Notes under the pieces: model-generated
The model's input: only the letters and a program-made list of their open reading frames with translations
Database searches by the model: none
What the model was told of the DNA's origin: nothing
Position numbers and translations under genes: made by a program
Shown here: positions 3,669-13,708 of the stretch, one piece after another
Numbering within the stretch: the stretch's first letter is position 1
Layout of the letters: the number at the start of each line of letters is the position of its first letter
IMG/VR virus record: IMGVR_UViG_3300020560_000006
Coordinates: 1 to 21,261 of that record
Reading direction: 5' to 3' (one strand)
Source of the DNA: a virus
DNA: 21,261 nucleotides

Positions 3669-3690
3669 ATTATACATTGGACCACTGACA
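3669..3690 (-). promoter_or_regulatory. TGTCA-N11-TATAAT promoter of the 3641-1334 operon
   Basis: Minus strand TTGTCAGT box with TGTCA at 3690-3686, 11 bp, TATAAT at 3674-3669 with an extended -10 (ATG before TATAAT). A CRP-type site is centred 75.5 bp upstream of the -10 edge. Confidence 0.8.
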
Positions 3691-3736
3691 ATTGGAATAC
3701 TATTTGGGTGTGAGTCACACCACATTTTATTCAGAA

Positions 3737-3752
3737 TGTGGTCAAGATCACA
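3737..3752. promoter_or_regulatory. CRP/GlxR-type site
   Basis: TGTGG TCAAGA TCACA: one mismatch in the left half of TGTGA-N6-TCACA. Centre 3744.5. A TGTGAGTCACA word lies nearby at 3709-3719. Confidence 0.55.
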
Positions 3753-3755
3753 GAA

Positions 3756-3784
3756 TTTCAGGAGTTTTCATATTGACCTCGTAA
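3756..3784. repeat. TTTCAGGG-N16-CGTAA element, copy 5
   Basis: TTTCAGGA at 3756-3763, 16 bp, CGTAA at 3780-3784, starting 4 bp after the CRP-type site. Confidence 0.7.
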
Positions 3785-3814
3785 AAGAGATATGATACCC
3801 TCATGTCTTTGTGG

Positions 3815-3847
3815 GCAAAAGAAAACCCCCAGCTATAAGCTGGGGGT
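3815..3847 (-). terminator. Strong rho-independent terminator
   Basis: A perfect 10-bp stem, ACCCCCAGCT (3825-3834) and AGCTGGGGGT (3838-3847), has a 3-nt loop and is followed on the minus strand by TTTTCTTTTG. It ends the operon that starts at 5564. Confidence 0.88.
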
Positions 3848-3970
3848 ATGAATATGGCTGCTGATTTCCAACGAAAGAAATAAACCGCTTTACTTAGCAC
3901 CTGGCCCGTAGACTAATAGATGCACCATTTCATTTCTATATTAAAACCAGGACCAAGGTCCTTGGATTAA
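3848..3970. other. Non-coding stretch after the 3971-4339 gene
   Basis: 123 bases of untranslated 3' region before the terminator. It has an imperfect palindrome around AAGGACCTTGG (3950-3966). A 12-codon reading on the minus strand (MVHLLVYGPGAK) lacks a ribosome binding site and I do not call it. Confidence 0.5.
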
Positions 3971-4339
3971 TTATACCATACTTGGTTGACTGGAATACTT
4001 TGAGACAAATGCATCCAGCGATTGACTGAAGACTTCTGCCTGCAGGTCCTCTTCCATGAGGGTAAACGTTTTAGCGGCCCAGTTAATTACAGGTACCTTG
4101 TGCTCATTATCGCCTAATTGATTGATGTAGAGGCCCCATCCAGTTTCGCTAGGCCATTCCTCATTTATCAATTGGCTAATGCATATACGTGTTGCATATG
4201 AGTGGTCGCTCCACCTAGGACGTGCCTGCTCTACAGCATTTGCTAAATTCTCTAGCATGCGATGTCCAGCCCAGTGTCCGTATAGATATAGTACATCGCC
4301 CTTAGAATCTTTAAATCCAAAGTTTGCTCTGTCGCCCAT
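3971..4339 (-). CDS. Conserved phage protein of unknown function, 122 aa
   Basis: Begins MGDRANFGFKDSKGDVLYLYGHWAGHRMLENLANA and has SYATRICISQLI and SETGWGLYINQLGDNEHKVP in the middle. These blocks are characteristic of a small protein widespread in actinobacteriophages whose role is not known to me. The start follows the previous gene by one base. It is the last gene of the operon from 5564 and is followed by untranslated sequence and a strong terminator. Confidence 0.85.
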   Translation of the reverse strand: MGDRANFGFKDSKGDVLYLYGHWAGHRMLENLANAVEQARPRWSDHSYATRICISQLINEEWPSETGWGLYINQLGDNEHKVPVINWAAKTFTLMEEDLQAEVFSQSLDAFVSKYSSQPSMV

Positions 4340-4340
4340 T

Positions 4341-4550
4341 TTATTCCGCCGTTTCTAGTATAGGTATTGCTTCTTCCGTTTTATTTAATTCTATCACTTC
4401 GTATGCGACCTTGTCAAGGCCTGCCTTGCTTGCATTGTAGTGGTGCCCGCAGAAGAAAAGCTCGCCTTCTACTAGTTTAACTACATACTTTGCTTGAGCT
4501 GTACCACATTGATCACAGCCAATCCATCTAGTTAGATCCTCAGTTGTCAT
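4341..4550 (-). CDS. Small zinc-binding protein, DUF7455-like, 69 aa
   Basis: CDQCGTAQAKYVVKLVEGELFFCGHHY shows two cysteine pairs of the type C-x2-C ... C-x-H-H, as in the DUF7455 family of actinobacteria and their phages (C12 and C15, then C34, H36, H37). It probably folds as a zinc ribbon; function unknown. The start overlaps the upstream stop by ATGA, so it is translationally coupled. Confidence 0.8.
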   Translation of the reverse strand: MTTEDLTRWIGCDQCGTAQAKYVVKLVEGELFFCGHHYNASKAGLDKVAYEVIELNKTEEAIPILETAE

Positions 4551-4693
4551 AATGTTCCACCTTCAATCATTTCGGAAAGACGGTCAAGAATCCAAGAGTC
4601 GATGTCAGCGATATCAATCTCTGCCAACTTCTCCATCATCTCTTCACGAGCAAACTTATACCCGTCTTCAAAACCATCTTTGTAATCTGACAT
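4547..4693 (-). CDS. Hypothetical small protein, 48 aa
   Basis: ATG at 4693 overlaps the stop of the gene before (TAATG) and the TGA overlaps the next ATG (ATGA). The product MSDYKDGFEDGYKFAREEMM is an acidic helical peptide; D-G-F-x-D-G-Y motifs of this sort occur at the start of small phage proteins. The overlaps on both sides make it real. Confidence 0.8.
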   Translation of the reverse strand: MSDYKDGFEDGYKFAREEMMEKLAEIDIADIDSWILDRLSEMIEGGTL

Positions 4694-4905
4694 TATTTCT
4701 CCTTATATCCTGTCGCTTCTCTATCTGACCAATATGATTCTGATAAATTATACTTGTCACGAATGCGACTTACTTTCTCAATACTACCAGTTCCGACATT
4801 GAATGTCAACGGTGGCATAAACTCAGGGTCGAGTCCAGTGATTTGTGCATCCCAATAAGCCATCTCAAGAGATAGCCTATCGGGAGCAGTCAACTCAAAA
4901 TACAT
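4693..4905 (-). CDS. Hypothetical protein, 70 aa
   Basis: I take the ATG at 4905 (MYFELTAPDR), which has AAGGGAAGC before it and overlaps the upstream stop as TAATG; an in-frame ATG at 4926 lies inside the upstream gene with no good site. The protein has an early ferredoxin-like look (strand, then LSLEMAYWDAQITGLDP) but no family I can name. Operon partner of its neighbours. Confidence 0.8.
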   Translation of the reverse strand: MYFELTAPDRLSLEMAYWDAQITGLDPEFMPPLTFNVGTGSIEKVSRIRDKYNLSESYWSDREATGYKEK

Positions 4906-5564
4906 TATGCTTCCCTTACGTGGCAAACTTCGGTGTCATCAATTGTGATGTTACCGTTATTTGAATCGGCGTAAAGAGCATCTGTGACTTCTGAATCAAG
5001 GTCCAATTCATAATCTGAATCTAATACATTGTATGAATATGTTCCGCTAACTTCAAGAGTTGCAGTAAATAGAACTTCTCGAACTAGTTCAATGCCAAGC
5101 GCTTCAGCAATTGCACGAAGTGTATCTTGGTCATCTGAATCGGCATATGCCTCAGTGATAATATCCTTGACTGTGTCAATCTTAGAATTTAAAACGTGAA
5201 TTGTTTTAGAATTAGTTCTAGAGTTATGAAGGTCCCATTCAATTGATGAGACTTTGTCAGTTGCATATTCTGCATCTGAATAACCACGGATTACTTTGTA
5301 TGTAACCAATAAGTTAGGATTGTATGTATCAGGAATTGTTACTGCTGATGTTTCTGTTGTTTCCATTGGTTCCTCTTTCGTTAGGGGTGTATCTGTATAC
5401 GGTATTGTAGCATCTTCCACTGACAATAATGTGCAACTGGTCCCACATCTGCATGTGAGGTCCATCACACCGTTTGGCCATCCATAGCCATCTTTAAAGG
5501 TATATTCAATTAAGGCATCACAATCGCTTGTGCACACCCAGGTATACTTCTGATACTTTGTCAT
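4905..5564 (-). CDS. Zinc-ribbon N-terminal phage protein, 219 aa, leaderless start
   Basis: The ATG at 5564 lies 7 nt after the TATAAT box of its promoter, so the mRNA would begin at or next to the start codon. The N-terminus has C11, C15, C38, C40 and C44 (WVCTSDC, then LTCRCGTSC), probably a zinc ribbon. The rest is acidic, with two beta-rich halves after residue 75 and DSDDQDTLRAIAEALGIELV around 135-155. An in-frame ATG at 5366 (METTET, residue 67) has a strong site AAAGAGGA, so a shorter 153-aa product lacking the ribbon may also be made. First gene of a five-gene operon; function unknown. Confidence 0.8.
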   Translation of the reverse strand: MTKYQKYTWVCTSDCDALIEYTFKDGYGWPNGVMDLTCRCGTSCTLLSVEDATIPYTDTPLTKEEPMETTETSAVTIPDTYNPNLLVTYKVIRGYSDAEYATDKVSSIEWDLHNSRTNSKTIHVLNSKIDTVKDIITEAYADSDDQDTLRAIAEALGIELVREVLFTATLEVSGTYSYNVLDSDYELDLDSEVTDALYADSNNGNITIDDTEVCHVREA

Positions 5565-5571
5565 GCCGAGA

Positions 5572-5593
5572 ATTATACACGACCCCACTGACA
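5572..5593 (-). promoter_or_regulatory. TGTCA-N11-TATAAT promoter of the 5564-3971 operon
   Basis: Minus strand ATGTCAGT with TGTCA at 5593-5589, 11 bp, TATAAT at 5577-5572 with extended -10 TG. The predicted start (about 5565) is one base from the ATG. Confidence 0.85.
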
Positions 5594-5604
5594 TGTGCAA
5601 TAGT

Positions 5605-5633
5605 TTTCAGGGCTTTTTTTATGTGAGTCGTAA
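5605..5633. repeat. TTTCAGGG-N16-CGTAA element, copy 6
   Basis: TTTCAGGG at 5605-5612, 16 bp, CGTAA at 5629-5633. The CRP-type site overlaps its right end. Confidence 0.75.
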
Positions 5634-5637
5634 CACA
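5622..5637. promoter_or_regulatory. CRP/GlxR-type site (imperfect)
   Basis: TGTGA GTCGTA ACACA: perfect left half, one mismatch right. Centre 5629.5, which is 57.5 bp from the -10 edge. Confidence 0.5.
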
Positions 5638-5669
5638 TTTTTACTTCCCTTAACATTGCGGGCGCTTTG

Positions 5670-5743
5670 CGATCCATAACGGACTTGAACCGTCGGCCTC
5701 TACCGTGACAGGGTAGCGCTCTAACCAACTGAGCTAATGGATC
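5670..5743 (-). tRNA. tRNA-Asp (anticodon GTC)
   Basis: On the minus strand the 74-nt sequence folds fully: acceptor GATCCAT/ATGGATC, D stem GCTC/GAGC, anticodon stem CTACC/GGTAG around CTGTCAC (anticodon GTC), T stem GACGG/CCGTT around TTCAAGT. The discriminator is G. CCA is not encoded; the next bases are CAA. It lies 47 nt after the DUF932-like gene, right behind a hairpin with a T run, so it may be processed from that transcript. Confidence 0.93.
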
Positions 5744-5747
5744 AAGA

Positions 5748-5779
5748 AAAAATTGTGAGCAGTTTTAAATCTTGCTCAG
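5748..5779 (-). terminator. Weak terminator-like hairpin before the tRNA
   Basis: Minus strand TGAGCA and TGCTCA form a 6-bp stem with an 11-nt loop, followed by CAATTTTTTC. It lies between the stop of the DUF932-like gene and the tRNA, so it could end the mRNA or mark a processing site. Confidence 0.45.
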
Positions 5780-5790
5780 GATTTATTTAT

Positions 5791-6798
5791 TTAGAAAGCA
5801 GAAACCAATTTCTTGATTTTGTTTTTCTCAGCAGTTAGAATTGGGTCAAAGCCTGATGCACCAGCCATTAGTGTTTCAGAATTGCCACGACCTGAACGAT
5901 AATAGTCAAGGCGCTCAGTAAGTGCATTGAAAGCACCCCACTTAGTTCCCTTGATGTTAGCGTTAGTTGGTGAATTGTGGTAAAGGTCATCAAGCAATAC
6001 AACCTTATTCTCCCACTTAGTCAATGCAACCTTAGCAGAATCCTTATCTGGCTTAGGATAGATTGTCTGAATCAACTTAGAGAATTCAGCATCAGTAATT
6101 GCCTGAGAGTAAAGTGCCTTTGCTTCAGTTTCGAATTCATCGAAGTAACCGAGAGCAAGCCCAAGAGTTTCACGAGCAACTTGAATACGACCATCAACAG
6201 ATTGTGTATGACGAATCTTGAATGATTGCTTTGCATTACGCATTGCAAGGTTCAATGTATTTTGGCAGACAACACGAACAGGAGTAACCGCTGCTTGAAC
6301 GGCAACAGAACCATCGTGTGAAGTCCATACAATGAGATAAAGTTTTGTCTCATCGTTAGCGCCTTGTGGGTCAAGAACCATTGTGCGTGGAATATCTACA
6401 GTTCCGAACACGACTTTGCCCTTCTTTAGTGAGCCAGCAGATTCCCAACGGCAATCAGCATTGGCATCGTGAATTGCATCGGCAAATGCAAATAGTTCCT
6501 CATTCTGAACTGGCTTGTAACGCTTGCCAACAGTTGCAAGAACATCAGTTCCCTTATTGAATGGGTTATCACGAATAACCAACTGAGCCTGAGATACATC
6601 ATTCCAAGATTCTGAAATGTGGTCGGTGAGTGGAGATAAGCGAACATTCCAATTTGCTAACTTTGCTTCTTCAAGCATTGTTGCAGTTGTAACTTCCTCA
6701 TCTTTTGTAAAGATGCGATTTGCTAGGTTGTGCCAAGCAGGTGCGCCACGGAGAGCGAAAGCAACTTCGCCGTTTTCCATTTCTAGATTGTGAGCCAT
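5791..6798 (-). CDS. DUF932 / TIGR03299 phage-plasmid-like protein, 335 aa
   Basis: The ATG at 6798 (MAHNLEMENGEVAFALRGAPAWH) has AAAGG upstream and lies 25 nt after the predicted transcription start; a longer reading from 6852 would begin before the promoter. The conserved features of the TIGR03299 family are visible: W-H near the N-terminus (A-W-H-N-L), the V-G-x-x-Y-x-x-x-Q-N-E segment (about 91-101), FGTVDIPR (about 132-139), and the central TPVRVVCQNTL (about 174-184). These proteins are common in phages and plasmids; a DNA-related role is often assumed but unproven. It heads its own unit with the tRNA behind it. Confidence 0.9.
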   Translation of the reverse strand: MAHNLEMENGEVAFALRGAPAWHNLANRIFTKDEEVTTATMLEEAKLANWNVRLSPLTDHISESWNDVSQAQLVIRDNPFNKGTDVLATVGKRYKPVQNEELFAFADAIHDANADCRWESAGSLKKGKVVFGTVDIPRTMVLDPQGANDETKLYLIVWTSHDGSVAVQAAVTPVRVVCQNTLNLAMRNAKQSFKIRHTQSVDGRIQVARETLGLALGYFDEFETEAKALYSQAITDAEFSKLIQTIYPKPDKDSAKVALTKWENKVVLLDDLYHNSPTNANIKGTKWGAFNALTERLDYYRSGRGNSETLMAGASGFDPILTAEKNKIKKLVSAF

Positions 6799-6829
6799 AT
6801 ATTTTTTACCTTTCGTTTGATTAGTTGTA

Positions 6830-6851
6830 AGTATAACAGACCCCACTGACA
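6830..6851 (-). promoter_or_regulatory. TGTCA-N11-TATACT promoter
   Basis: Minus strand TGTCA at 6851-6847, 11 bp, TATACT at 6835-6830 with extended TGT. TAGACA lies at a weak -35 position. Confidence 0.85.
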
Positions 6852-6889
6852 TTGTCTAGGATTAGTTACAATATGTCCGAATTGATCAG

Positions 6890-6905
6890 TGTGATTAATC
6901 TCACA
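6890..6905. promoter_or_regulatory. CRP/GlxR-type site (perfect halves)
   Basis: TGTGA TTAATC TCACA, centre 6897.5, 67.5 bp from the -10 edge. A CAAWTCGGACAT-type motif lies beside it at 6873-6884. Confidence 0.75.
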
Positions 6906-6908
6906 GAA

Positions 6909-6937
6909 TTTCAGGGCTTATCCACAGGTGGCCGTAA
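6909..6937. repeat. TTTCAGGG-N16-CGTAA element, copy 7
   Basis: TTTCAGGG at 6909-6916, 16 bp containing a DnaA-box-like word, CGTAA at 6933-6937. Begins 4 bp after the CRP-type site. Confidence 0.8.
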
Positions 6938-6953
6938 CGCTGTGGATAACCCC
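6914..6953. other. Inverted pair of DnaA-box-like words (hairpin)
   Basis: TTATCCACA at 6918-6926 and TGTGGATAA at 6941-6949 form the arms of an inverted repeat with flanking GGG/CCC and a loop of about 12 nt. No T run follows on the minus strand, so a terminator is less likely than at 581. Confidence 0.5.
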
Positions 6954-6978
6954 TCCCTATTGGGGGCCGAGCTCAGGA

Positions 6979-7239
6979 TTAACTCCCGAATTCGATCCTT
7001 GTAGCCTTGCTTAGTAATTGTTTATTGAAGTTCACAATAGATTCATCTAAGAACATTGCGGTTGTCTTCTTTTTCTTTACGTTATCAAAAACGTAAGCAT
7101 TTATTTTGCCGCTGAATTTATTTAGATTACTAAAAACTAATTCAGTTAGGTATTCCTTATCAACACCTTGCTCAGAATAAATTGTTACATCATTGAGTTT
7201 GTTTGCGTCATAGATTTCAACACGATAACGATTTGCCAT
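6979..7239 (-). CDS. Hypothetical protein, 86 aa
   Basis: MANRYRVEIYDANKLNDVTIYSEQ starts at 7239 after AAAGGC. The protein looks like a small alpha/beta domain (strand, helix 27-40, strand GKINAYVFD, basic KKKK, helix). Same unit as the gene at 7308-7724, 68 nt downstream of it. Family not recognised. Confidence 0.8.
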   Translation of the reverse strand: MANRYRVEIYDANKLNDVTIYSEQGVDKEYLTELVFSNLNKFSGKINAYVFDNVKKKKTTAMFLDESIVNFNKQLLSKATRIEFGS

Positions 7240-7307
7240 TGTATTGCCTTTGTTAGTAGTTTCCCGAAGGAGAGCAGTTTGGCGACATACTCAGGTCGTT
7301 GGATTAT

Positions 7308-7724
7308 TTAGAGATACTTAGCAATCTGCTTCATTGTAGAAGCATTTACTGTTTCCTCATCTGTCATCTTGAGAATTGTGAGAGCATTTGTAATGTCCTC
7401 TTTCATCTCACGATACTGGTGCTGATGGATAACCTCAAAATCCTTTTCAGGTTCAGCAGGAAAACTTCCATCTTTTGTGATGATGTCAAAATCAACATTG
7501 AGAGTGTTGTTCCATTGACGATAGTTTGTGCGAAGGTTCTCAGCCTTTGAGAAGTTGGCAATAGCCCACTTACCGATTTCCTTGCGCCACGCTTCTTGCG
7601 CTTTGCCGAACTTTGCTTCCTTTGCGGTCTGTGTGCTGTAATCGCTTTCTAGTGTTGCTAGACGAGCCTCTAGTGCTTTGATTACTTTGCTTGTTGCTAC
7701 CTTTACTGTGATTTGTCTGCTCAT
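7308..7724 (-). CDS. Hypothetical coiled-coil phage protein, 138 aa
   Basis: The ATG at 7724 (MSRQITVKVATSKVIKALEARL) follows GAAAGGAAATACA. Residues about 10-60 form a charged helix with heptad-like spacing, followed by aromatic WRKEIGKWAIANF and a second helical segment near residues 100-138. This resembles small unknown proteins in actinobacteriophages. First gene of a two-gene unit with 6979-7239. Confidence 0.83.
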   Translation of the reverse strand: MSRQITVKVATSKVIKALEARLATLESDYSTQTAKEAKFGKAQEAWRKEIGKWAIANFSKAENLRTNYRQWNNTLNVDFDIITKDGSFPAEPEKDFEVIHQHQYREMKEDITNALTILKMTDEETVNASTMKQIAKYL

Positions 7725-7752
7725 TGTATTTCCTTTCGTTGGTTGGTTGATT

Positions 7753-7774
7753 AGTATAGCAGGGGGGTCTGACA
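7753..7774 (-). promoter_or_regulatory. TGTCA-N11-TATACT promoter
   Basis: Minus strand TGTCA at 7774-7770, 11 bp, TATACT at 7758-7753 with TGC before it. This is the only unit-head promoter of the class with no CRP-type site. A GGTGG/CCACC tetraloop hairpin (7778-7791) lies directly upstream. Confidence 0.8.
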
Positions 7775-7777
7775 TTT

Positions 7778-7828
7778 CCACCCGAAGGTGGAGAGTTCTT
7801 ACTTACGACATTGGACTAGAACACTCTC
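7778..7828 (-). terminator. Two hairpins after the 7854-8036 gene
   Basis: On the minus strand GAGAGTGTTCT (7828-7818) pairs imperfectly with AGAACTCTC (7799-7791). It is followed by CCACC-TTCG-GGTGG (7791-7778). There is no T run, so termination is uncertain. Confidence 0.4.
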
Positions 7829-7853
7829 TAAACTGTCCCTGTTTCGTTCTAGG

Positions 7854-8036
7854 TTATGCGCCTAGAAGTGTTTTAGCAGATACTGAAGTCCAGCGAGTTT
7901 CTTTGCTAGGCATTTCTAGCAAGACACGCACCGAGCCAGATGCTTGTGGGTGTATCTCTTTGATAACGCCCGTCTTTTTTGACTTTAGGGTGGTGAATAA
8001 ATCGCCAACCTGATACAACTTGTCGTTGATTGTCAT
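7854..8036 (-). CDS. SH3-like beta-barrel phage protein, 60 aa
   Basis: MTINDKLYQVGDLFTTLKSKKTGVIKEIHPQ... starts at 8036 after AAAAGAGG. The pattern VGD-x-F-T-T ... TGxIKEI ... SVRVLLEM ... RWTSV is that of a small SH3/KOW-like barrel found in actinobacteriophages. Such domains bind nucleic acid or proteins, but the role here is unknown. It forms a single-gene unit with its own promoter. Confidence 0.8.
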   Translation of the reverse strand: MTINDKLYQVGDLFTTLKSKKTGVIKEIHPQASGSVRVLLEMPSKETRWTSVSAKTLLGA

Positions 8037-8063
8037 TTTTGCCTCTTTTCTGTGTAGGTGGTA

Positions 8064-8085
8064 AGTATAACATTGGGGTCTGACA
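8064..8085 (-). promoter_or_regulatory. TGTCA-N11-TATACT promoter
   Basis: Minus strand TGTCA at 8085-8081, 11 bp, TATACT at 8069-8064. Confidence 0.82.
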
Positions 8086-8123
8086 TTTGTCTAGCCCTAT
8101 CTCAGTATTTGAGAAACTTATTG

Positions 8124-8139
8124 TGTGACCTTAGTCACT
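8124..8139. promoter_or_regulatory. CRP/GlxR-type site overlapping a stop codon
   Basis: TGTGA CCTTAG TCACT: one mismatch at the last base. Centre 8131.5, 67.5 bp from the -10 edge. It overlaps the 3' end of the 8131-8394 gene. Confidence 0.6.
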
Positions 8140-8394
8140 TTCTTGTAGCCAAGCGTCTAAGTGGTGCTGTTCGACAATAGCCGATGCAGGGGCAAACCTT
8201 TCGCCTCGATAGAATACGCCTTCAGGCATTTCGATCTGTCGGTTGTAGTCATTTTCCCAATAGGCGTCAATAGCCTCGATGCAAGGCTCGACCATAGATA
8301 GTGGAACGGGCGGGTAATGATTACCTTGTAAGTGCATAGCAATACCTTGTTCTAAATCTAATTCTGCAAAATCAAGCGCAGTGTTGTATCCCAT
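8131..8394 (-). CDS. Conserved actinophage protein of unknown function, 87 aa
   Basis: MGYNTALDFAELDLEQGIAMHLQGNHYPPVPLSMVEPCIEAIDAY... shows the HLQxNHxPPVPxxMVxPC block typical of a small protein common in actinobacteriophages; its role is not known to me. It follows the 8397-8621 gene with a 2-nt gap and uses GGAGA as ribosome binding site. The operator for the next unit overlaps its stop codon. Confidence 0.87.
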   Translation of the reverse strand: MGYNTALDFAELDLEQGIAMHLQGNHYPPVPLSMVEPCIEAIDAYWENDYNRQIEMPEGVFYRGERFAPASAIVEQHHLDAWLQESD

Positions 8395-8396
8395 TA

Positions 8397-8621
8397 TTAG
8401 TTATCTCCTTTGATAGTTACTTCAGCCCAAGTGTTGTTATCATTTGCAAGTGGTAATACATTAGACATACCAAGTGCGTGTAGTGTTGCTTCCTTGCACA
8501 TTTGTTCAATTGAACTTTTATCAAGCGCAATTAGCGCAGGCAATAAACTTGCAGGAATTTTATCCAAGTCAATAATTGCCTCGAATACAACTGTGTGTGG
8601 AACTTTCATTAGATTAGACAT
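8397..8621 (-). CDS. Hypothetical protein, 74 aa
   Basis: I choose the ATG at 8621 (MSNLMKVPHTVVFEAIIDLD), which has CGAAAGG before it; a reading from 8651 would start inside the -10 box. The protein is beta then helix (SSIEQMCKEATLHALGM) then a short strand. Family unknown. First gene of a two-gene unit. Confidence 0.8.
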   Translation of the reverse strand: MSNLMKVPHTVVFEAIIDLDKIPASLLPALIALDKSSIEQMCKEATLHALGMSNVLPLANDNNTWAEVTIKGDN

Positions 8622-8650
8622 TTGTAGCCTTTCGTTGTTGGATAGTAGCA

Positions 8651-8672
8651 ATTATAGCGTATGGCACTGACA
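8651..8672 (-). promoter_or_regulatory. TGTCA-N11-TATAAT promoter
   Basis: Minus strand TGTCA at 8672-8668, 11 bp, TATAAT at 8656-8651 (no extended TG). Confidence 0.8.
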
Positions 8673-8705
8673 TTACCTAATCCATCCTCGGCGTGTCGCA
8701 GCTTT

Positions 8706-8721
8706 TGTGATTAACCTCACA
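8706..8721. promoter_or_regulatory. CRP/GlxR-type site (perfect halves)
   Basis: TGTGA TTAACC TCACA, centre 8713.5, 62.5 bp from the -10 edge. This is the one spacing that does not fit the 10-bp periodicity of the others. Confidence 0.72.
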
Positions 8722-8722
8722 A

Positions 8723-8750
8723 TTTCAGGGGTTGTGGATAACTCTCGTAA
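8723..8750. repeat. TTTCAGGG-N15-CGTAA element, copy 8
   Basis: TTTCAGGG at 8723-8730, 15 bp (one less than the others), CGTAA at 8746-8750. It contains a DnaA-box-like word. Confidence 0.75.
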
Positions 8751-8811
8751 GCCTGTGGATAACCCCCCTACATATAGGGGCCGAGCTGACAATTGTCAAC
8801 TCGACACGCCG
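8731..8811. other. DnaA-box-like repeats and hairpins
   Basis: TGTGGATAA occurs as a direct repeat at 8733-8741 and 8754-8762. A CCCCTA/TAGGGG hairpin follows, then the palindrome TGACAATTGTCA, and finally CGACACGCC at 8802-8810. On the minus strand this is the 3' end of the unit starting at 9684. Confidence 0.5.
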
Positions 8812-8964
8812 TTATTGTTTCTCCCAACGATAGGGCACATCATCTTTACCGTCATTATCACTATCAATCTTGGCCCCACGCCACATGTACACCGCTAGCA
8901 CAAGTGGTGAGCACAAGAATGCAATTAATATAATTCCAATTACAGATCCGATCACGTCATACAT
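8812..8964 (-). CDS. Small single-pass membrane protein, 50 aa
   Basis: ATG at 8964 directly follows the upstream stop (TAAATG). Residues 4-27 (VIGSVIGIILIAFLCSPLVL...) are a clear transmembrane segment, followed by a polar tail KIDSDNDGKDDVPYRW that resembles the calcium-loop DxDxDG pattern. Topology and function unknown; coupled to the GP88-like gene. Confidence 0.78.
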   Translation of the reverse strand: MYDVIGSVIGIILIAFLCSPLVLAVYMWRGAKIDSDNDGKDDVPYRWEKQ

Positions 8965-9684
8965 TTATTTTTTACTCGCAGAAAATCTTATATCCGCTTT
9001 ACCATAAACACACAATCCACACGATACGCAGGCGGACCCTGCAGAAGAGATAAGTGGAATTGATTTCATATTCTCAGGACACTTAGCACCAGGCTTGCCC
9101 GTCAATTCTTTCATTGTGCTTTCAGTCACGGCGAATGTCTTCCCTAGGTAGGCAAGACGAATTCCCTCATTTACTTTTAGTTCGTGACCGATTTCCTTAT
9201 TATCATCATCGGTGGAATAGTAAAGAGATAGATTAGGAACATCCTTTAGAATAAGCGCTGCAGACTTTACACGTGTGTAAACCCAGAATTGAACATCGGT
9301 GTGCTCATTGATTACATTCTTCCAGGCATAAGTATAGAAATCATTGAAGAAATCCCCGTCCCAGTGGATACGGAATAACATAGGGGCGTCTTTCTTTACA
9401 CAATCAGCCTTGAAATCAATAATCATTTCATTTAGCAATTGATACATTGTTTCCATATCGGCATTGCGTAGCAATTCCCAATTGTGTAGCAGATTAGTTT
9501 TTACTCCAGGGAATAACTTTTCGAGTTTTCCTGCGTAGCAAACACTCTCACAAATACTAGTGGCACCAGGGCATGAATAATTCTTTCCTGCAGGGAGCCC
9601 GAACGTGTTCGCAATTGCGGCTTGCTTTCCATTTTTTGTGACAAGGTTAGCCACCTTTCTATCGTTAGAGCGTTTTAGTTTCAT
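8965..9684 (-). CDS. GP88-family phage protein, 239 aa
   Basis: The N-terminal SCPGATSICESVCYAGK (about residues 37-53) and the C-terminal CVSCGLCVYG (about 219-228) match the cysteine pattern of the Gene product 88 family, known from mycobacteriophages and other phages. The cysteines probably bind a metal; no activity is established. Aromatic FRIHWDGDFFNDFYTYAW (about 103-120) is the conserved core. ATG at 9684 follows GAGGTCCA. It heads a two-gene unit with the small membrane protein. Confidence 0.87.
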   Translation of the reverse strand: MKLKRSNDRKVANLVTKNGKQAAIANTFGLPAGKNYSCPGATSICESVCYAGKLEKLFPGVKTNLLHNWELLRNADMETMYQLLNEMIIDFKADCVKKDAPMLFRIHWDGDFFNDFYTYAWKNVINEHTDVQFWVYTRVKSAALILKDVPNLSLYYSTDDDNKEIGHELKVNEGIRLAYLGKTFAVTESTMKELTGKPGAKCPENMKSIPLISSAGSACVSCGLCVYGKADIRFSASKK

Positions 9685-9711
9685 TGGACCTCAATCGTTG
9701 GTTGAATGGCA

Positions 9712-9733
9712 AGTATAGCAGAATGGACCGACA
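9712..9733 (-). promoter_or_regulatory. TGTCG-N11-TATACT promoter
   Basis: Minus strand TGTCG at 9733-9729 (A to G variant), 11 bp, TATACT at 9717-9712. Confidence 0.78.
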
Positions 9734-9754
9734 TATTCCAATCTTGGCCCAGCT

Positions 9755-9783
9755 TTCCAGGGTGATTTTGATCACAGCCGTAA
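9755..9783. repeat. TTTCAGGG-N16-CGTAA element, copy 9
   Basis: TTCCAGGG at 9755-9762, 16 bp, CGTAA at 9779-9783. The CRP-type site (9761-9776) lies inside it. Confidence 0.68.
9761..9776. promoter_or_regulatory. CRP/GlxR-type site
   Basis: GGTGA TTTTGA TCACA: one mismatch. Centre 9768.5, 56.5 bp from the -10 edge. Confidence 0.6.
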
Positions 9784-9819
9784 CGACACGCCCGACCCCG
9801 TGCCTTTGGGGGCCAAGCT
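9779..9819. repeat. Partial copy of the 65-bp intergenic repeat
   Basis: CGTAACGACACGCCCGACC and the following CCGTGCCTTTG match the elements at 11038 and 11819, then the copy diverges. It sits between the stop at 9825 and the promoter at 9712. Confidence 0.7.
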
Positions 9820-9824
9820 GCGGG

Positions 9825-9956
9825 CTATTGATCAAATTTATTTTTATGTTTTATTTTGCGTGTGTATTTTTTTTTATTACGAACAGGTTGCGCCGCATTA
9901 CTGCGACGCAATTCCTGAATTCGTTTAACTTTATCTTGAAGTGAAGTTAGGAACAT
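9825..9956 (-). CDS. Hypothetical small basic protein, 43 aa
   Basis: MFLTSLQDKVKRIQELRRSN starts at 9956, 26 nt inside the upstream gene, and continues to a very basic tail (RNKKKYTRKIKHKNK). The ribosome binding site is weak (GTGGG), but the coding frame is open over a run of A that would otherwise break, and overlapping starts are the rule here. The charge suggests nucleic-acid binding (inference). Confidence 0.6.
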   Translation of the reverse strand: MFLTSLQDKVKRIQELRRSNAAQPVRNKKKYTRKIKHKNKFDQ

Positions 9957-10122
9957 TATACCCACTCGCTTCGTGAAATCGTTTTACATCAAATCTTTCA
10001 TTATCAACCGCAAACATTTCAGCGAAATCATTTACGATTTTAGAAAAAACAGCGGGGTGAATTTTATTGCTAGCATACTTTAGAATTTCTGCCGTTGCGA
10101 CATAATCTTTGCGTGTCATCAT
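9931..10122 (-). CDS. Hypothetical protein, 63 aa
   Basis: The start at 10122 (or the next codon, 10119) overlaps the upstream stop as ATGA. The protein MMTRKDYVATAEILKYASNK is helical and ends RFHEASGYNVPNF; the pattern K-D-Y-V-A-T-A-E-I is like small proteins repeatedly seen in phages, often with FDxxRFxxA near the end. Function unknown. Confidence 0.82.
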   Translation of the reverse strand: MMTRKDYVATAEILKYASNKIHPAVFSKIVNDFAEMFAVDNERFDVKRFHEASGYNVPNFTSR

Positions 10123-10322
10123 TTAACTGATACCATTCCTGTTCTGTAGAAAACTTTTGTATAGCATTTGCCTGTTGGCGTGTAAATATTTACAGTTGAG
10201 TATTCATCAGCAAATCCCCAATCGGTAAATTTGAAAAAGTTTTCCCAAGCACCAAATTCGCTTTCGTATTCGGCAGACCAGTGGGGAGCGTTGCTATCAT
10301 AAGCACAAGTTATTTTATACAT
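10119..10322 (-). CDS. Hypothetical phage protein, 67 aa
   Basis: MYKITCAYDSNAPHWSAEYE... with AWENFFKFTDWGFADEYSTVN and YTPTGKCYTKVFYR. This block structure (D-W-G-x-A-D-E-Y-S-T-V-N) is typical of a small phage protein of unknown function. ATG at 10322 after TAGGAAAA. Part of a six-gene unit from 10851. Confidence 0.83.
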   Translation of the reverse strand: MYKITCAYDSNAPHWSAEYESEFGAWENFFKFTDWGFADEYSTVNIYTPTGKCYTKVFYRTGMVSVK

Positions 10323-10330
10323 TAGTTTTC

Positions 10331-10474
10331 CTATTCGTTTGGGTTGTAGTGGTTATAGTTTGGAGTTAGAGCGCAATCGCAAGGCTCGACATCATAGTCA
10401 AGGTCATTACCCCAAAAGATAAGACCTGAACCATCACATTCATCACAAGGGAAAGTCATTACTGAATTTATCAT
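10331..10474 (-). CDS. Small zinc-finger-like protein, 47 aa
   Basis: The ATG at 10474 overlaps the upstream stop (TAATG). CDECDGSG (residues 10-17) is the DnaJ-type C-x2-C-x-G-x-G motif, paired with CDC at 32-34. A small zinc knuckle is likely; role unknown. The stop lies 8 nt before the next start. Confidence 0.75.
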   Translation of the reverse strand: MINSVMTFPCDECDGSGLIFWGNDLDYDVEPCDCALTPNYNHYNPNE

Positions 10475-10644
10475 TAGTGTTGTTCCTCGCAATCTTGGTC
10501 ATAATCAAATCCGCAAAAGTAGCAATCCATTTGCTCGCCGTGTGCTTTACACACATAGCGGAATTGACTTTCATCACAGCAAAAGTGTTGCTCATCTTTT
10601 ACCAAATAGAATTCGGTTTGGTCAATGTAATCTTTAGTTATCAT
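10474..10644 (-). CDS. Small cysteine-rich protein, 56 aa
   Basis: MITKDYIDQTEFYLVKDEQH is followed by C22, C23, C32, C41, C44 and C52 (FCC, VCKAHGEQMDCYFCGFD), which could hold one or two zinc ions. TAAATG joins it to the upstream gene and TAATG to the next. Function unknown. Confidence 0.75.
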   Translation of the reverse strand: MITKDYIDQTEFYLVKDEQHFCCDESQFRYVCKAHGEQMDCYFCGFDYDQDCEEQH

Positions 10645-10851
10645 TTATTCACCAACCTTTACGGCAACAGTTGCGAATTTATTTCGCAGACCGCCTGTGC
10701 GAATTTCGATTAGAAACGCTTCAGTTTTATCGCCATACCAAATTTCAGGGCGAGGCTTAGCGGATACAATTTCACCAGCAAAGTGGCGATTGCGTGAGCG
10801 GTAGTTTTGTCCTACGAGTAGGCTTTCGATTGTGTATAGTTTGGTAGCCAT
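10645..10851 (-). CDS. Conserved small phage protein, 68 aa
   Basis: MATKLYTIESLLVGQNYRSRNRHFAGEIVSAKPR... and ATVAVKVGE at the end form a beta-rich barrel-like protein. The GxNYRSRxRHFxGEI block is familiar from actinobacteriophage proteins of unknown function. ATG at 10851 after AGAAGG. First gene of the unit ending at 9825. Confidence 0.83.
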   Translation of the reverse strand: MATKLYTIESLLVGQNYRSRNRHFAGEIVSAKPRPEIWYGDKTEAFLIEIRTGGLRNKFATVAVKVGE

Positions 10852-10886
10852 TGGCAGACCTTCTTTCGTTTGTTGTTATGTATGGA

Positions 10887-10908
10887 ATTATACACGAGCC
10901 TACTGACA
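10887..10908 (-). promoter_or_regulatory. TGTCA-N11-TATAAT promoter
   Basis: Minus strand TGTCA at 10908-10904, 11 bp, TATAAT at 10892-10887 with extended TG. Confidence 0.85.
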
Positions 10909-10956
10909 TTTTCACATTACTAGCCAGTAAGTCCAAATAATGAGACGCTCAAGCCG

Positions 10957-10972
10957 TGTGATACTAATCACA
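10957..10972. promoter_or_regulatory. CRP/GlxR-type site (perfect halves)
   Basis: TGTGA TACTAA TCACA, centre 10964.5, 77.5 bp from the -10 edge. A CAAWTCGGACAT-type motif follows at 10978-10989. Confidence 0.75.
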
Positions 10973-11013
10973 TCAATATGTCCGATTTGTCTGTCAAATC
11001 GACACGCCGCAAA

Positions 11014-11042
11014 TTTCACGGGATTTTATAACAATCTCGTAA
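11014..11042. repeat. TTTCAGGG-N16-CGTAA element, copy 10
   Basis: TTTCACGG at 11014-11021, 16 bp, CGTAA at 11038-11042. It runs straight into the 65-bp repeat. Confidence 0.7.
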
Positions 11043-11102
11043 CGACACGCCCGACCCCGTGCCTTTGCGGGCCAGCTTGACTTTGTCAAGCCGACACGCC
11101 GT
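11038..11102. repeat. 65-bp intergenic repeat, copy A
   Basis: Identical to 11819-11883 except one base (T/C near 11063). It contains CGACACGCC at both ends (11043, 11092) and a GCTTGAC-TTT-GTCAAGC hairpin. It begins right at the stop of the 11102-11296 gene, so it may end that transcript. Confidence 0.9.
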
Positions 11103-11296
11103 TATTCTTCTTCTAATTCTGCTAAATAATCTTCGTGCTCTACTAATCCAATCGCAAACGCAACAGGATCGCAACACTCTAGAATTTCGGCGGGTGTGAA
11201 AGTTGAGTAGCCGATTTTTACAGTTGGATAAAGGTCATTTAGAAAGTCTATAAAACTTTCTTTGATTTCTAAATCTTTTTCAAACTGCGATTTCAT
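11102..11296 (-). CDS. Hypothetical acidic protein, 64 aa
   Basis: I choose the ATG at 11296 (MKSQFEKDLEIKESFIDFLN), which follows AGAGGTTGCAG, over a longer reading with no ribosome site. It overlaps the upstream gene by 17 nt. It is helical and acidic (ends YLAELEEE). The 65-bp repeat begins at its stop. Function unknown. Confidence 0.78.
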   Translation of the reverse strand: MKSQFEKDLEIKESFIDFLNDLYPTVKIGYSTFTPAEILECCDPVAFAIGLVEHEDYLAELEEE

Positions 11297-11432
11297 CTGC
11301 AACCTCTTTCCATTCAAAACAATAAGAGTCTGAAACAAAAGCATTTTTTACAACGCTATCAAATAAAGAAATAGCCATTTCTTCATCTTCTGCATCTATG
11401 TCTAGCCAAACGCCAAATGTGTATCTTTTCAT
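11280..11432 (-). CDS. Hypothetical small protein, 50 aa
   Basis: MKRYTFGVWLDIDAEDEEMA starts at 11432, overlapping the upstream stop (TAATG) with AGGAAGG before it. The beta-helix-beta look (strand YTFGVWLDI, helix DEEMAISLFDSVV, strand YCFEWKEV) is like a small ferredoxin-type fold. Unknown function. Confidence 0.75.
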   Translation of the reverse strand: MKRYTFGVWLDIDAEDEEMAISLFDSVVKNAFVSDSYCFEWKEVADEIAV

Positions 11433-11554
11433 TAGAGCGCACCTTCCTGAAATAATCCAATTTCTAAATCTAGTAATTCATCGGGGGTTGCTTCGGATAA
11501 ATCTACCCAACCCGCACCCTCGTTATCTATGCGAAAGATTTCTACATAACCCAT
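11432..11554 (-). CDS. Hypothetical small protein, 40 aa
   Basis: MGYVEIFRIDNEGAGWVDLS... is an acidic peptide. ATG at 11554 directly follows the upstream stop (TAAATG) with AGGAGGCA upstream, a strong ribosome site; TAATG links it to the next gene. Unknown function. Confidence 0.75.
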   Translation of the reverse strand: MGYVEIFRIDNEGAGWVDLSEATPDELLDLEIGLFQEGAL

Positions 11555-11683
11555 TTAGTCTGCCTCCTTAGTATTGAATAGAGAGGACATCTTATCATTA
11601 GCCTCTGACATTGTTGCGATAGCCTTCAATAGGCTTTCCTTGCGTGTGGCTTCTACATAAGCCTTGTATTCATCTAGTGTCAT
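11555..11683 (-). CDS. Hypothetical small helical protein, 42 aa
   Basis: MTLDEYKAYVEATRKESLLK starts at 11683 after AACGAAAGGTCGATAAA and 26 nt behind the predicted transcription start. The peptide is a single charged helix region. First gene of the unit ending at 11102. Confidence 0.76.
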   Translation of the reverse strand: MTLDEYKAYVEATRKESLLKAIATMSEANDKMSSLFNTKEAD

Positions 11684-11715
11684 TTTATCGACCTTTCGTT
11701 GTGGTTATAGTAGGT

Positions 11716-11737
11716 AGTATACACGAGCACACCGACA
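11716..11737 (-). promoter_or_regulatory. TGTCG-N11-TATACT promoter
   Basis: Minus strand TTGATAATGTCGGT, with TGTCG at 11737-11733, 11 bp, TATACT at 11721-11716. This copy also has a fair -35 (TTGATA). Confidence 0.8.
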
Positions 11738-11776
11738 TTATCAACACGACACGCCGTGTTTCAAGAAATCTTTTTT

Positions 11777-11792
11777 TGTGATAAACCTCACA
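11777..11792. promoter_or_regulatory. CRP/GlxR-type site (perfect halves)
   Basis: TGTGA TAAACC TCACA, centre 11784.5, 68.5 bp from the -10 edge. Confidence 0.75.
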
Positions 11793-11794
11793 AA

Positions 11795-11823
11795 ATTCAA
11801 GGGGTTCTATAACATTAGCGTAA
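11795..11823. repeat. TTTCAGGG-N16-CGTAA element, copy 11
   Basis: ATTCAAGG at 11795-11802, 16 bp, CGTAA at 11819-11823, starting 3 bp after the CRP-type site and running into the 65-bp repeat. Confidence 0.65.
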
Positions 11824-11883
11824 CGACACGCCCGACCCCGTGCCCTTGCGGGCCAGCTTGACTTTGTCAAGCCGACACGCCGT
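11819..11883. repeat. 65-bp intergenic repeat, copy B
   Basis: One base different from copy A (11038-11102). The two copies sit at equivalent places, between the end of one unit and the promoter of the next, about 780 bp apart. Confidence 0.9.
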
Positions 11884-11887
11884 AGCG

Positions 11888-11998
11888 TTAGCGTAATTTA
11901 TTGTGAATTAGATCACGAATTACTAGGCGTAGCATAATTAGGGCGGGGATACCGATACCTAATTGGACTAGCGTAGTTAGTATGCGATTAGTAGTCAT
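11888..11998 (-). CDS. Tiny membrane protein, 36 aa
   Basis: MTTNRILTTLVQLGIGIPAL continues IMLRLVI and ends basic; residues 5-27 are a transmembrane helix. ATG at 11998 overlaps the stop of the upstream membrane protein (TAATG). Function unknown. Confidence 0.7.
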   Translation of the reverse strand: MTTNRILTTLVQLGIGIPALIMLRLVIRDLIHNKLR

Positions 11999-12153
11999 TA
12001 CTTATTCTTCTTTCTCTTATAAATCTTATAAGCGATTAGTGCTAGGGCGGTGATAATAATAGTGTGCCAAGGTAGATAGATAGACCCTAAGAAACTATCT
12101 AACTCAAATCCGTATTCGCTTGTTATGTATAAATCAAATCCGTTAGGTATCAT
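11998..12153 (-). CDS. Small membrane protein, 51 aa
   Basis: A polar N-terminal half is followed by HTIIITALALIAYKIYKRKK, a transmembrane helix with a basic cytoplasmic end (positive-inside suggests N-out). Start 2 nt after the upstream stop. Coupled to the 36-aa membrane protein, so the two may act as a pair (inference). Confidence 0.75.
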   Translation of the reverse strand: MIPNGFDLYITSEYGFELDSFLGSIYLPWHTIIITALALIAYKIYKRKKNK

Positions 12154-12155
12154 TA

Positions 12156-12338
12156 TTAGTTATCCCAACTTAGTGCGAATACTTTTGCTAATTCTTCATC
12201 ATCAACATCATCAAAGTCATCTAGTGGCGGTTGTTCTTCATCTGCCTCATCTAGATAAGTGTATGCGTCTGCGACATCTGATTGGATAGACTCGTATTTA
12301 TCTATCGTGTTTGTATTGTATGAGTATGCGTATGACAT
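12156..12338 (-). CDS. Hypothetical strongly acidic protein, 60 aa
   Basis: MSYAYSYNTNTIDKYESIQS is followed by a run of acidic residues (DEADEEQPPLDDFDDVDDEE). TAATG overlap with the upstream gene. The charge pattern could suggest a DNA mimic, but there is no homology I can name. Confidence 0.76.
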   Translation of the reverse strand: MSYAYSYNTNTIDKYESIQSDVADAYTYLDEADEEQPPLDDFDDVDDEELAKVFALSWDN

Positions 12339-12490
12339 TACTTGACCTCTACTTCTCTAATGTTGTAAGTGAAACCCTTACCTAGTTTATTTAGTTCAGC
12401 GATTACCGCTAAGATTTCTTCAGGCTTGCTAGCCTTTTGATTGACGGCTAATAGTTGAGAGCCTTGCCATAGTGTGTATGTGATAGTCAT
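12338..12490 (-). CDS. Hypothetical small protein, 50 aa
   Basis: MTITYTLWQGSQLLAVNQKA... then PEEILAVIAELNKLGKGFTY: strand-turn-helix-strand. ATG at 12490 after GAAAGAAGAACAGAC. First gene of a four-gene unit; its mRNA leader is long (about 110 nt) and holds a 19-bp direct repeat. Function unknown. Confidence 0.76.
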   Translation of the reverse strand: MTITYTLWQGSQLLAVNQKASKPEEILAVIAELNKLGKGFTYNIREVEVK

Positions 12491-12531
12491 TGTCTGTTCT
12501 TCTTTCGTTAGTAGTTAGTTAGTTGTTGAGC

Positions 12532-12575
12532 GATTATTTGCTAGGCTCACCTTTCGGATTATTTGCTAGGCTCAC
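12532..12575. repeat. 19-bp direct repeat in an mRNA leader
   Basis: gattatttgctaggctcac occurs at 12532-12550 and 12557-12575 (period 25). It lies between the promoter at 12607-12628 and the ATG at 12490, so it would be transcribed. The outer flanks can pair (GAGCG/CGCTC). Confidence 0.8.
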
Positions 12576-12606
12576 GCTCTAATTCTTATTTAGTTGTTAT
12601 GTCGTT

Positions 12607-12628
12607 ATTGTAGCCGATACGACTGACA
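12607..12628 (-). promoter_or_regulatory. TGTCA-N11-TACAAT promoter
   Basis: Minus strand TGTCA at 12628-12624, 11 bp, TACAAT at 12612-12607. The -10 has one change from TATAAT. Confidence 0.72.
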
Positions 12629-12656
12629 TTTAGGGGGATTTAGACCCTAGTGTCCG

Positions 12657-12672
12657 TGTGATTTACCTCACA
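12657..12672. promoter_or_regulatory. CRP/GlxR-type site (perfect halves) over a stop codon
   Basis: TGTGA TTTACC TCACA, centre 12664.5, 57.5 bp from the -10 edge. It contains the stop codon of the 12663-12815 gene. Confidence 0.72.
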
Positions 12673-12815
12673 CAACAAGCGCAATAGGTCGGTAGGCTAA
12701 AGAGGTGCTTTAGCAACGCCTTGCGTTCATAGGTAGTCAATTCGGGGTGGTTAGACTTCACGCCCCCGTGTTGGTATTCATAGACGATTGCGTCTAGTGT
12801 TTTTTGAGTGAGCAT
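12663..12815 (-). CDS. Hypothetical small protein, 50 aa
   Basis: MLTQKTLDAIVYEYQHGGVK... ends LPTYCACCVR. ATG at 12815 follows GAAAGGAGC. The C-A-C-C end could bind metal. It is the first gene of the minus arm, alone in its unit, and its last codons overlap the operator of the next unit, so its sequence is under double constraint. Unknown family. Confidence 0.72.
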   Translation of the reverse strand: MLTQKTLDAIVYEYQHGGVKSNHPELTTYERKALLKHLFSLPTYCACCVR

Positions 12816-12871
12816 TTGATTGCTCCTTTCTTTAGCGGATTTCTTTACCGCTTGTTTTTCTTTATATATTT

Positions 12872-12893
12872 AGTCTAGCAGGGGGGACTGACA
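12872..12893 (-). promoter_or_regulatory. TGTCA-N11-TAGACT promoter
   Basis: Minus strand TGTCA at 12893-12889, 11 bp, TAGACT at 12877-12872 with TGC before it. Confidence 0.7.
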
Positions 12894-12931
12894 TTTATGC
12901 CCGTTTCTCGGGCGTGTCGGTAAAAAACTTT

Positions 12932-12947
12932 TGTGAGTCGCATCACA
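12932..12947. promoter_or_regulatory. CRP/GlxR-type site (perfect halves)
   Basis: TGTGA GTCGCA TCACA, centre 12939.5, 67.5 bp from the -10 edge. Confidence 0.72.
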
Positions 12948-13340
12948 CTCACGCTCAAGGTCGGAAGCCTATGTGCTCACTATCGGGCAAATCGGACATT
13001 TTCTATAGTGTGTATCATACAAGTTAAAAATATATTAACATTTTCTCAAATTTCAAAAAGCTATTGACTTTCGAAAATACGTAATGTTATACTTGGGAAG
13101 GTTTCGGGGGTTACACTAGAGAACTCAATACACCAAGTAATTCTTGGGATTGGATCTTGCAACTCTCCTCTATCTTTCCAAAAAGTTAAAATTTGGGGGG
13201 TAGGGGGGGTTTGCTAAAAAATCTAATTCCCAAGTAATCAATAAAAAGAATATATAATATATATAAGCAATATGCAATAGGCAAAAAAATATTTTATTAA
13301 CATTTAGTAGGATATTAAAAGCAGTCGACTAGGATATAAC
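12948..13340. other. Non-coding divergence region between the two arms
   Basis: No gene seen. It holds a CAAWTCGGACAT-type motif (12988-12999), a plus-strand promoter (13064-13093), a CCAAG/CTTGG inverted repeat near 13133-13147, repeated CCAAGTAAT (about 13133 and 13226), two G runs in the GGGGGGTAGGGGGGG stretch around 13195-13210, and AT-rich sequence up to the first plus-strand gene. If the promoter is used, the first gene has a leader of about 240 nt. Confidence 0.6.
13064..13093 (+). promoter_or_regulatory. Plus-strand promoter of the right arm
   Basis: TTGACT (13064-13069), 18-bp spacer, TATACT (13088-13093) with extended TGT. No TGTCA box. Confidence 0.7.
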
Positions 13341-13688: not shown

Positions 13689-13708
13689 TTTAGTCAACTA
13701 GGATATAT

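Follow-up and report, generated by a model that had tools for sequence, protein, structure and literature searches.

What switches on the run of small leftward genes in a 21,261-bp stretch of viral DNA (IMG/VR record IMGVR_UViG_3300020560_000006, positions 1 to 21,261; hereafter the window, meaning the whole of that stretch) is the question raised by a palindrome, TGTGA-N6-TCACA, that recurs upstream of them and has the form of an operator of the CRP family. The window holds seven perfect copies and six with one mismatch. Shuffled versions of its sequence held a mean of 1.0 and a maximum of 5 sites, and none of 100 shuffles reached 13. An earlier note on this DNA had counted six perfect and four one-mismatch copies; all ten are real and correctly placed, and the count was incomplete, a perfect site at 5454 and one-mismatch sites at 3709 and 11902 having been overlooked. 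The operator pattern is thereby confirmed and is stronger than had been claimed. The description of nearly all sites as non-coding needs qualification, as site 5454 lies within the longer frame 4905-5564 and site 12657-12672 overlaps the 3′ end of frame 12663-12815. Our reading, to which we give a probability of about 0.7, is that these are operators for a CRP-type activator of the host that switches on 11 leftward promoters of the window. Because CRP-type sites stand upstream of many promoters of the small genes, mostly on one face of the helix, the data suggest that a widespread phage group, probably of freshwater actinobacteria, lets a metabolic sensor of its host switch on its genes.

The promoters in question are on the minus strand and share a TGTC(A/G)G box with a −10 hexamer exactly 16 bp downstream of the first T of the box. 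From hexamer to hexamer, exactly 10 bp separate the box from an extended −10, so that the box sits inside the normal spacer and a proper −35 is missing. Core promoters of this TGTCAG type have their box at 12893, 12628, 11737, 10908, 9733, 8672, 8085, 7774, 6851, 5593, 5425, 3690, and 2337. Eleven of them carry a CRP-type site; those at 7774 and 2337, together with a possible one at 2915, do not. With distances running from the centre of the site to the base at which the −10 hexamer begins, 12 sites are linked to these 11 promoters (that at 3690 has two), and 10 of the 11 have a site no more than 1 bp from 42.5, 52.5, 62.5, or 72.5 bp. In a Rayleigh-type test with a period of 10, against uniform distances of 40.5–75.5, the 12 linked sites gave R = 0.75 and p ~0.0005 (p = 0.0017 with the period scanned over 9.5–11.5). 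The ten sites of the earlier note taken by themselves gave R = 0.70 and p ~0.006 (p = 0.015 with the same scan), and the two linked sites that it had not used, 5454 at 52.5 bp and 3709 at 42.5 bp, are exactly in phase. The steps of about 10 bp that it described stand, while its individual values are the measured distances plus 5; the single exception that it named, 62.5 in its own measure, is the off-phase promoter with the site at 8706, at 57.5 bp here.

Taken from the right-hand end of the block, the promoter at 12872..12896 (TGTCAG at 12893, −10 TAGACT at 12877-12872) drives gene 12663-12815 and has a perfect site at 12932..12947, 62.5 bp from the −10. That at 12607..12631 (TGTCAG 12628, −10 12612-12607; gene 12338-12490) has a perfect site at 12657..12672 (52.5 bp), and that at 11716..11740 (TGTCGG 11737, −10 11721-11716; gene 11555-11683) one at 11777..11792 (63.5 bp). 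The one-mismatch site at 11902..11917 is without a promoter of the TGTCAG type at the usual distance, lying 188.5 bp from the −10 at 11721. The promoter at 10887..10911 (TGTCAG 10908, −10 10892-10887; gene 10645-10851) has a perfect site at 10957..10972 (72.5 bp). The GP88 gene (PF17338, 8965-9684) is driven from 9712..9736 (TGTCGG 9733, −10 9717-9712), with a one-mismatch site at 9761..9776 (51.5 bp). Upstream of the promoter at 8651..8675 (TGTCAG 8672, −10 8656-8651; gene 8397-8621) a perfect site at 8706..8721 lies at 57.5 bp, out of phase by half a turn, in a cassette that recurs in relatives. The promoter at 8064..8088 (TGTCAG 8085, −10 8069-8064; gene 7854-8036) has a one-mismatch site at 8124..8139 (62.5 bp), and the site-free promoter at 7753..7777 precedes gene 7308-7724. 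The DUF932 gene (PF06067, 5791..6798, minus strand) is driven from 6830..6854 (TGTCAG 6851, −10 6835-6830), with a perfect site at 6890..6905 (62.5 bp). Gene 4905-5564 is driven from 5572..5596 (TGTCAG 5593, −10 5577-5572; one-mismatch site 5622..5637, 52.5 bp), and its short form, 4905-5366, from 5404..5428 (TGTCAG 5425, −10 5409-5404; perfect site 5454..5469, 52.5 bp). These two promoters, each with its own site, could yield long (219 residues) and short (153 residues) forms of one protein; the inner site falls in coding sequence, between the cysteine clusters of the longer form. Finally, the promoter at 3669..3693 (TGTCAG 3690-3685, −10 3674-3669; gene 2850-3641) has one-mismatch sites in tandem, 3709..3724 in phase at 42.5 bp and 3737..3752 at 70.5 bp, 2 bp out of phase.

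The same layout recurs in relatives. A scan of viral contigs for a site followed by 18–48 bp and TGTCAG-N10-TATAMT found at least 119 viral stretches, against none with swapped half-sites. Genome contigs yielded 2 stretches, and with 2 there vs. at least 119 in viral contigs we rejected ordinary host promoters as the source of the arrangement. With a looser pattern, the loci of the viral stretches gave 278 distinct matches; these peak at and around 52.5 (33), 62.5 (72), and 72.5 (43), and lesser peaks stand at 42.5 (9), 57.5 (21), and 94.5 (6). We also sampled loci independently of the site, as relatives of DUF932 (best 80 of 258) and GP88 (best 80 of 591). Their 323 distinct promoters had 212 sites with at most one mismatch 35–205 bp upstream, an interval of 170 bp, where the controls gave 13 (swapped half-sites) and 1 (reversed motif); the ~120 bp downstream held 28 sites. 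This set leaves out near-duplicates (10-mer sharing above 50%) and promoters close to the end of a locus (under 220 bp ahead of the box or 130 bp beyond the −10). Sites at 35–100 bp numbered 202, and 171 of these fall within 1 bp of 42.5, 52.5, 62.5, 72.5, 83.5, or 94.5, where chance would place ~28%, the classes having been chosen after the data were seen. Dereplication was at 60% in the DUF932 and GP88 upstream sets (short upstreams skipped) and in the logo, family, and 57.5 analyses described below. The window's own promoter at 12893 is outside the relatives' sets because the search pattern misses −10 boxes such as TAGACT. In 19 records of 86–117 kb there are 1–8 perfect sites each, the reversed control being zero in 18 of the 19, and in the 13 of these records whose sites are fully listed all sites lie within one stretch of at most ~10 kb.

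As related promoters inherit their spacing by descent, promoters were grouped by downstream gene; these gene families replaced a k-mer clustering that had thrown 139 of 307 matches into one group. The resulting table leaves out 119 of 1804 promoters that had no downstream frame and shows families with at least three distinct promoters or a member from the window. With one modal distance per family, the period of 10 persists both for sites with at most one mismatch (R = 0.63, 51 families, 0 of 20,000 simulations) and for perfect sites only (R = 0.42, p = 0.002, 34 families). In 17 gene families, the position of the site differs by whole turns among orthologous promoters, with two or more such positions per family; the family of gene 7854-8036, for example, has sites at 42.5, 52.5, 61.5–62.5, and 72.5. 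Over all loci, including those picked by the site pattern, and for sites at 35–100 bp, an in-phase site is present in 416 of 469 distinct site-bearing promoters and in 385 of 437 that have a single site. Loss of the periodicity in related phages, on which the earlier note had said its proposal would fall, did not occur. Conservation is also gene by gene. The DUF932 promoter has a site at 62.5 in 31 of 31 distinct upstream regions of close relatives (protein identity at least 91%), 30 of them perfect, and in its whole family the site is missing in 3 of 66; at promoter 7774, all 53 distinct relatives are without a site. Four distant DUF932 relatives (54–59% protein identity) have sites at 61.5, 62.5, 71.5, and 72.5, those at 71.5 and 72.5 with one mismatch each and the latter beside a perfect site at 89.5.

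The window and its relatives together supplied 471 dereplicated site-bearing promoters for a logo, which, with the −10 taken to start at −12, shows AAATGTCAGT at −31 to −22 and an extended −10, TGnTATAAT. Conservation of the box and −10 letters is by construction, because the search pattern preset TGTC(A/G)(G/A) and most −10 letters; the informative letters are the flanking A-rich start, T-22, and the TG of the extended −10. Ahead of the A-rich beginning of the box, the −35 region has only a weak bias, T-35 (0.59) and G-33 (0.49), and so shows the weak or missing −35 of a class I CRP-dependent promoter. Since they have an extended −10 and the AAATGTCAGT box and hardly any −35, such promoters may be weak unaided. 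In the 52.5, 62.5, and 72.5 classes, an A/T-rich patch covers about −51 to −48, where the alpha C-terminal domain of RNA polymerase could sit; site-free promoters have a similar but weaker one there.

The place of the window among known phages bears on the host. Its closest isolates are Streptomyces phages of cluster BE (Stanwilliamsviridae: Jay2Jay, Yaboi), with a best identity of 65.5% for ribonucleotide reductase (RNR) and ~50% for DUF932. In common with them it has a leftward block of small genes that includes the DUF932 homologue, then a transglycosylase (SLT-type domain at 18100-18660, by profile match), then a rightward RNR. With its RNR and DUF932 homologues in matching order, the window is Stanwilliamsviridae-like, formal membership of the family being a separate matter. 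In several long relatives (e.g., G006, G008, and G010; not G001 or G014) RNR and DUF932 are 11–13 kb apart, just as they are in the window. Cluster BE1 phages are described as having direct terminal repeats of ~11 kbp (PMC5764925), and among the matches listed DUF932 occurs at two places in each of 25 records. By its gene order the block, which the earlier note had called middle genes, corresponds to the terminal-repeat end of the Streptomyces BE phages, making that label doubtful; by analogy we infer only that it is probably terminal and early, because none of the 19 long relatives (86–117 kb) has two DUF932 copies. An actinobacterium is the most likely host, since whiB is present in 22 of 40 relatives (14 of the 15 records that reach 90 kb or more) and, among 14 control genomes, WhiB was confined to Corynebacterium. 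Together with the kinship to Streptomyces phages, this supports the actinobacterial setting proposed earlier. Freshwater Nanopelagicales would be our guess from the literature, the accessible parts of which do not name this phage group (PMC10202952; PMC6802176), and the literature matches listed for a host CRP have no mention of 'Planktophila'.

Which protein binds the sites was approached through domain searches of 40 relatives, namely those among the at least 119 loci whose records, which may be incomplete, measure 40 kb or more (117 kb at most). The cyclic nucleotide monophosphate (cNMP)-binding domain PF00027 was found in none of the 40 at E ≤ 0.001, nor in the window's own record, a 21-kb fragment. 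HTH_Crp_2 (PF13545) gave two weak hits and nothing over the cut-off in the 40, and adenylate cyclase PF00211, the only cyclase family searched, was likewise absent from them. A phage-encoded CRP, the other possibility raised in the earlier note, was rejected on these grounds. Given that the 40 relatives have no detectable cNMP-binding domain, the binder is probably a CRP-type activator of the host. It is unlikely that the sites instead serve a phage protein with CRP-like specificity and no recognisable CRP fold that binds and activates. Such a protein would suit the near-absence of the arrangement from bacterial genome contigs, and candidates exist in WhiB and in a small helix-turn-helix (HTH) protein, for which 10 of the 40 relatives have a sigma-region-4-like match, all weak and none over the cut-off; yet the palindrome matches the CRP family both in its half-site and in its 6-bp spacer, and the domain searches just described speak against it. 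In one relative (L301, 1477-1617), a 46-residue HTH-like protein follows a 188-residue frame that looks RuvC-like by eye.

In E. coli, class I CRP promoters use one face of the helix. We propose that a dimer of host CRP would bind about four to seven helical turns upstream of the −10 and make contact with RNA polymerase along a single face of the DNA, on the model of the contact between activating region 1 (AR1) of CRP and the alpha C-terminal domain, and that this contact would activate leftward promoters lacking a good −35. The phage would thereby tie a specific set of small, probably early genes to the cyclic AMP (cAMP) and carbon state of its host. The spacing in the window and in the relatives supports the earlier claim of class I-like operators in helical phase, with sites whole turns apart upstream of the core promoter. 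A host CRP might also repress or time these promoters, as has been demonstrated for the pir, dam, and recE promoters of coliphage T1 (PMC6737242). We regard this as quite improbable, as no linked site in the window comes nearer than 42.5 bp to the −10, all being upstream and outside the core promoter, and the use of one face with whole-turn changes among relatives fits contact with polymerase. Nor is the periodicity likely to be mere common descent of a few copied promoter cassettes, an explanation to which we assign very little weight. The promoter regions are indeed akin to one another, and certain cassettes, such as that at 57.5 of 8706, look copied, but the phase persists at one value per family, orthologous promoters in 17 families differ by whole turns, and the DUF932 relatives at 54–59% identity differ by one turn, although exchange of promoters between gene families would weaken this test. 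The family test and the divergent DUF932 relatives thus led us to reject a copying artefact for all except the 57.5 cassette. That the sites are a sponge titrating host CRP with no action on promoters is scarcely credible, since 17 of the 19 long relatives do have 4–8 perfect sites but a sponge would need neither promoter linkage nor gene-specific retention nor helical phase.

Several observations weigh against activation by a host CRP. Within the window, the promoter of 8706 is the sole one off phase, the misplaced site at 3737 sharing its promoter with the in-phase 3709. Among the 469 site-bearing promoters, 53 are off phase only and do not conform to whole-turn spacing (20 at 57.5, 11 at 64.5, 6 at 65.5, 6 at 70.5, and 10 others). 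The class with its best site at 57.5 comprises 26 distinct promoters, of which 18 have the GACACGCC cassette of 8706, 6 a second site at 72.5–74.5, and 2 neither; the GACACGCC cassette at 57.5 is a real exception to the phase. If the −10 begins at −12, the register is ~3 bp farther from the −10 than in the −61.5 class of E. coli, and the 42.5 class has no class I counterpart known to us; both could stem from actinobacterial geometry, or from a factor on the TGTCAGT box. The site is optional at some genes: GP88, with a core promoter no more than 40 bp from its start in 43 of 52 distinct regions, has a site in only 10 of the 52, seven at 51.5 and the other three at 65.5, 67.5, and 174.5. More broadly, 338 of 807 distinct TGTCAG-type promoters have no site at 35–100 bp, and in dereplicated sets the −10 is not clearly weaker in site-bearing than in site-free promoters. 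Unlike the window, Jay2Jay and Yaboi have no perfect CRP-type sites in their first 24 kb and two with one mismatch, both in Yaboi; the one match to the promoter pattern in Jay2Jay is chance-like, within the RNR gene. Host CRP as the binder is, moreover, our assumption. The earlier naming of GlxR is not borne out, as the operator consensus of Corynebacterium GlxR, TGTGANNTANNTCACA, has a central TA (PMC4254451) that only one of the seven perfect window sites possesses.

Host regulators on phage promoters are already known, and what is remarkable here is the extent and the phase. T4-like cyanophages resemble the present case in carrying 1–16 sites per genome, on diverse genes, for a host regulator of the CRP family, NtcA, and the metabolic state of the host has been proposed to drive cyanophage transcription through it (PMC3037559). 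They differ in the site (GTA-N8-TAC), the signal (2-oxoglutarate), the regulator, the host, and the phage family, and the available part of that report does not analyse helical phase (PMC3037559). PhoB boxes on cyanophage genes likewise place a host stress regulator at phage promoters, there with partial confirmation by gel shift; unlike here, the regulator is two-component and the signal phosphate, and the same report cautions that prediction of boxes in phage genomes is unreliable without binding data (PMC10976474). Coliphage T1 shares with our proposal the action of host cAMP-CRP on phage promoters, and departs from it in that the effect is repression, at three promoters, linked to the choice between lysogeny and lysis (PMC6737242). 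The dimeric site upstream of the core promoter is shared with class I CRP promoters of E. coli, in which it is centred at −61.5 (PMC5957442), whereas the centres here would be near −54.5, −64.5, −74.5, and −84.5 if the −10 begins at −12. A further difference from those promoters is that there is little −35 here and a TGTCAGT box in the spacer. A search of titles and abstract openings, with subscription papers mostly outside it, turned up no description of CRP/GlxR operators on a whole set of actinophage promoters.

A fuller version is offered tentatively and as something we would not expect to hold: in a freshwater actinophage lineage, an early block of small genes would be under an AND gate made of a phage-dedicated core promoter, with a TGTCAGT box replacing the −35 and probably recognised by some factor of the phage, WhiB or the small HTH protein for example, and of host cAMP-CRP acting from one face in a register unused by E. 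coli. Were this so, infection would be timed by the carbon state of the host. If host CRP is the binder, a widespread phage lineage has made one of its gene blocks part of the cAMP regulon of the host, and the dependence of phage takeover of common lake bacteria on host carbon state becomes directly testable. The natural variation over hundreds of promoters would also be an evolutionary readout of the distances and registers permitted to a CRP-type activator.

A few minor features accompany the sites. A contig of 109,918 bases (L127), one of the two genome-contig matches, in a metagenome bin labelled 'cyanobacterium' has two site and promoter arrangements and is perhaps a misbinned phage; the 9 PF00027 matches of that bin are to the bin as a whole and uninformative on any phage. 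In the window, a second dispersed repeat, roughly TTTCAGGG-N~13-TCGTAA, occurs on the plus strand at 305-334, 473-502, 521-550, 1288-1317, 3755-3784, 5604-5633, and 11013-11042, in places adjoining or overlapping CRP-type sites. Elements resembling DnaA boxes, TTATCCACA and TGTGGATAA, were noticed on reading the sequence at ~590-620, 6918-6950, and 8735-8765, two of the three groups being beside CRP-type sites. A 93-bp direct repeat, 91% identical, at 11010-11102 and 11791-11883 contains GACACGCC elements, and further GACACGCC elements lie at 8793 and 9779. Two rightward genes begin immediately after GTCRACTAGGATATA (13324-13338 and 13693-13707), perhaps a second, nearly leaderless class of promoter.

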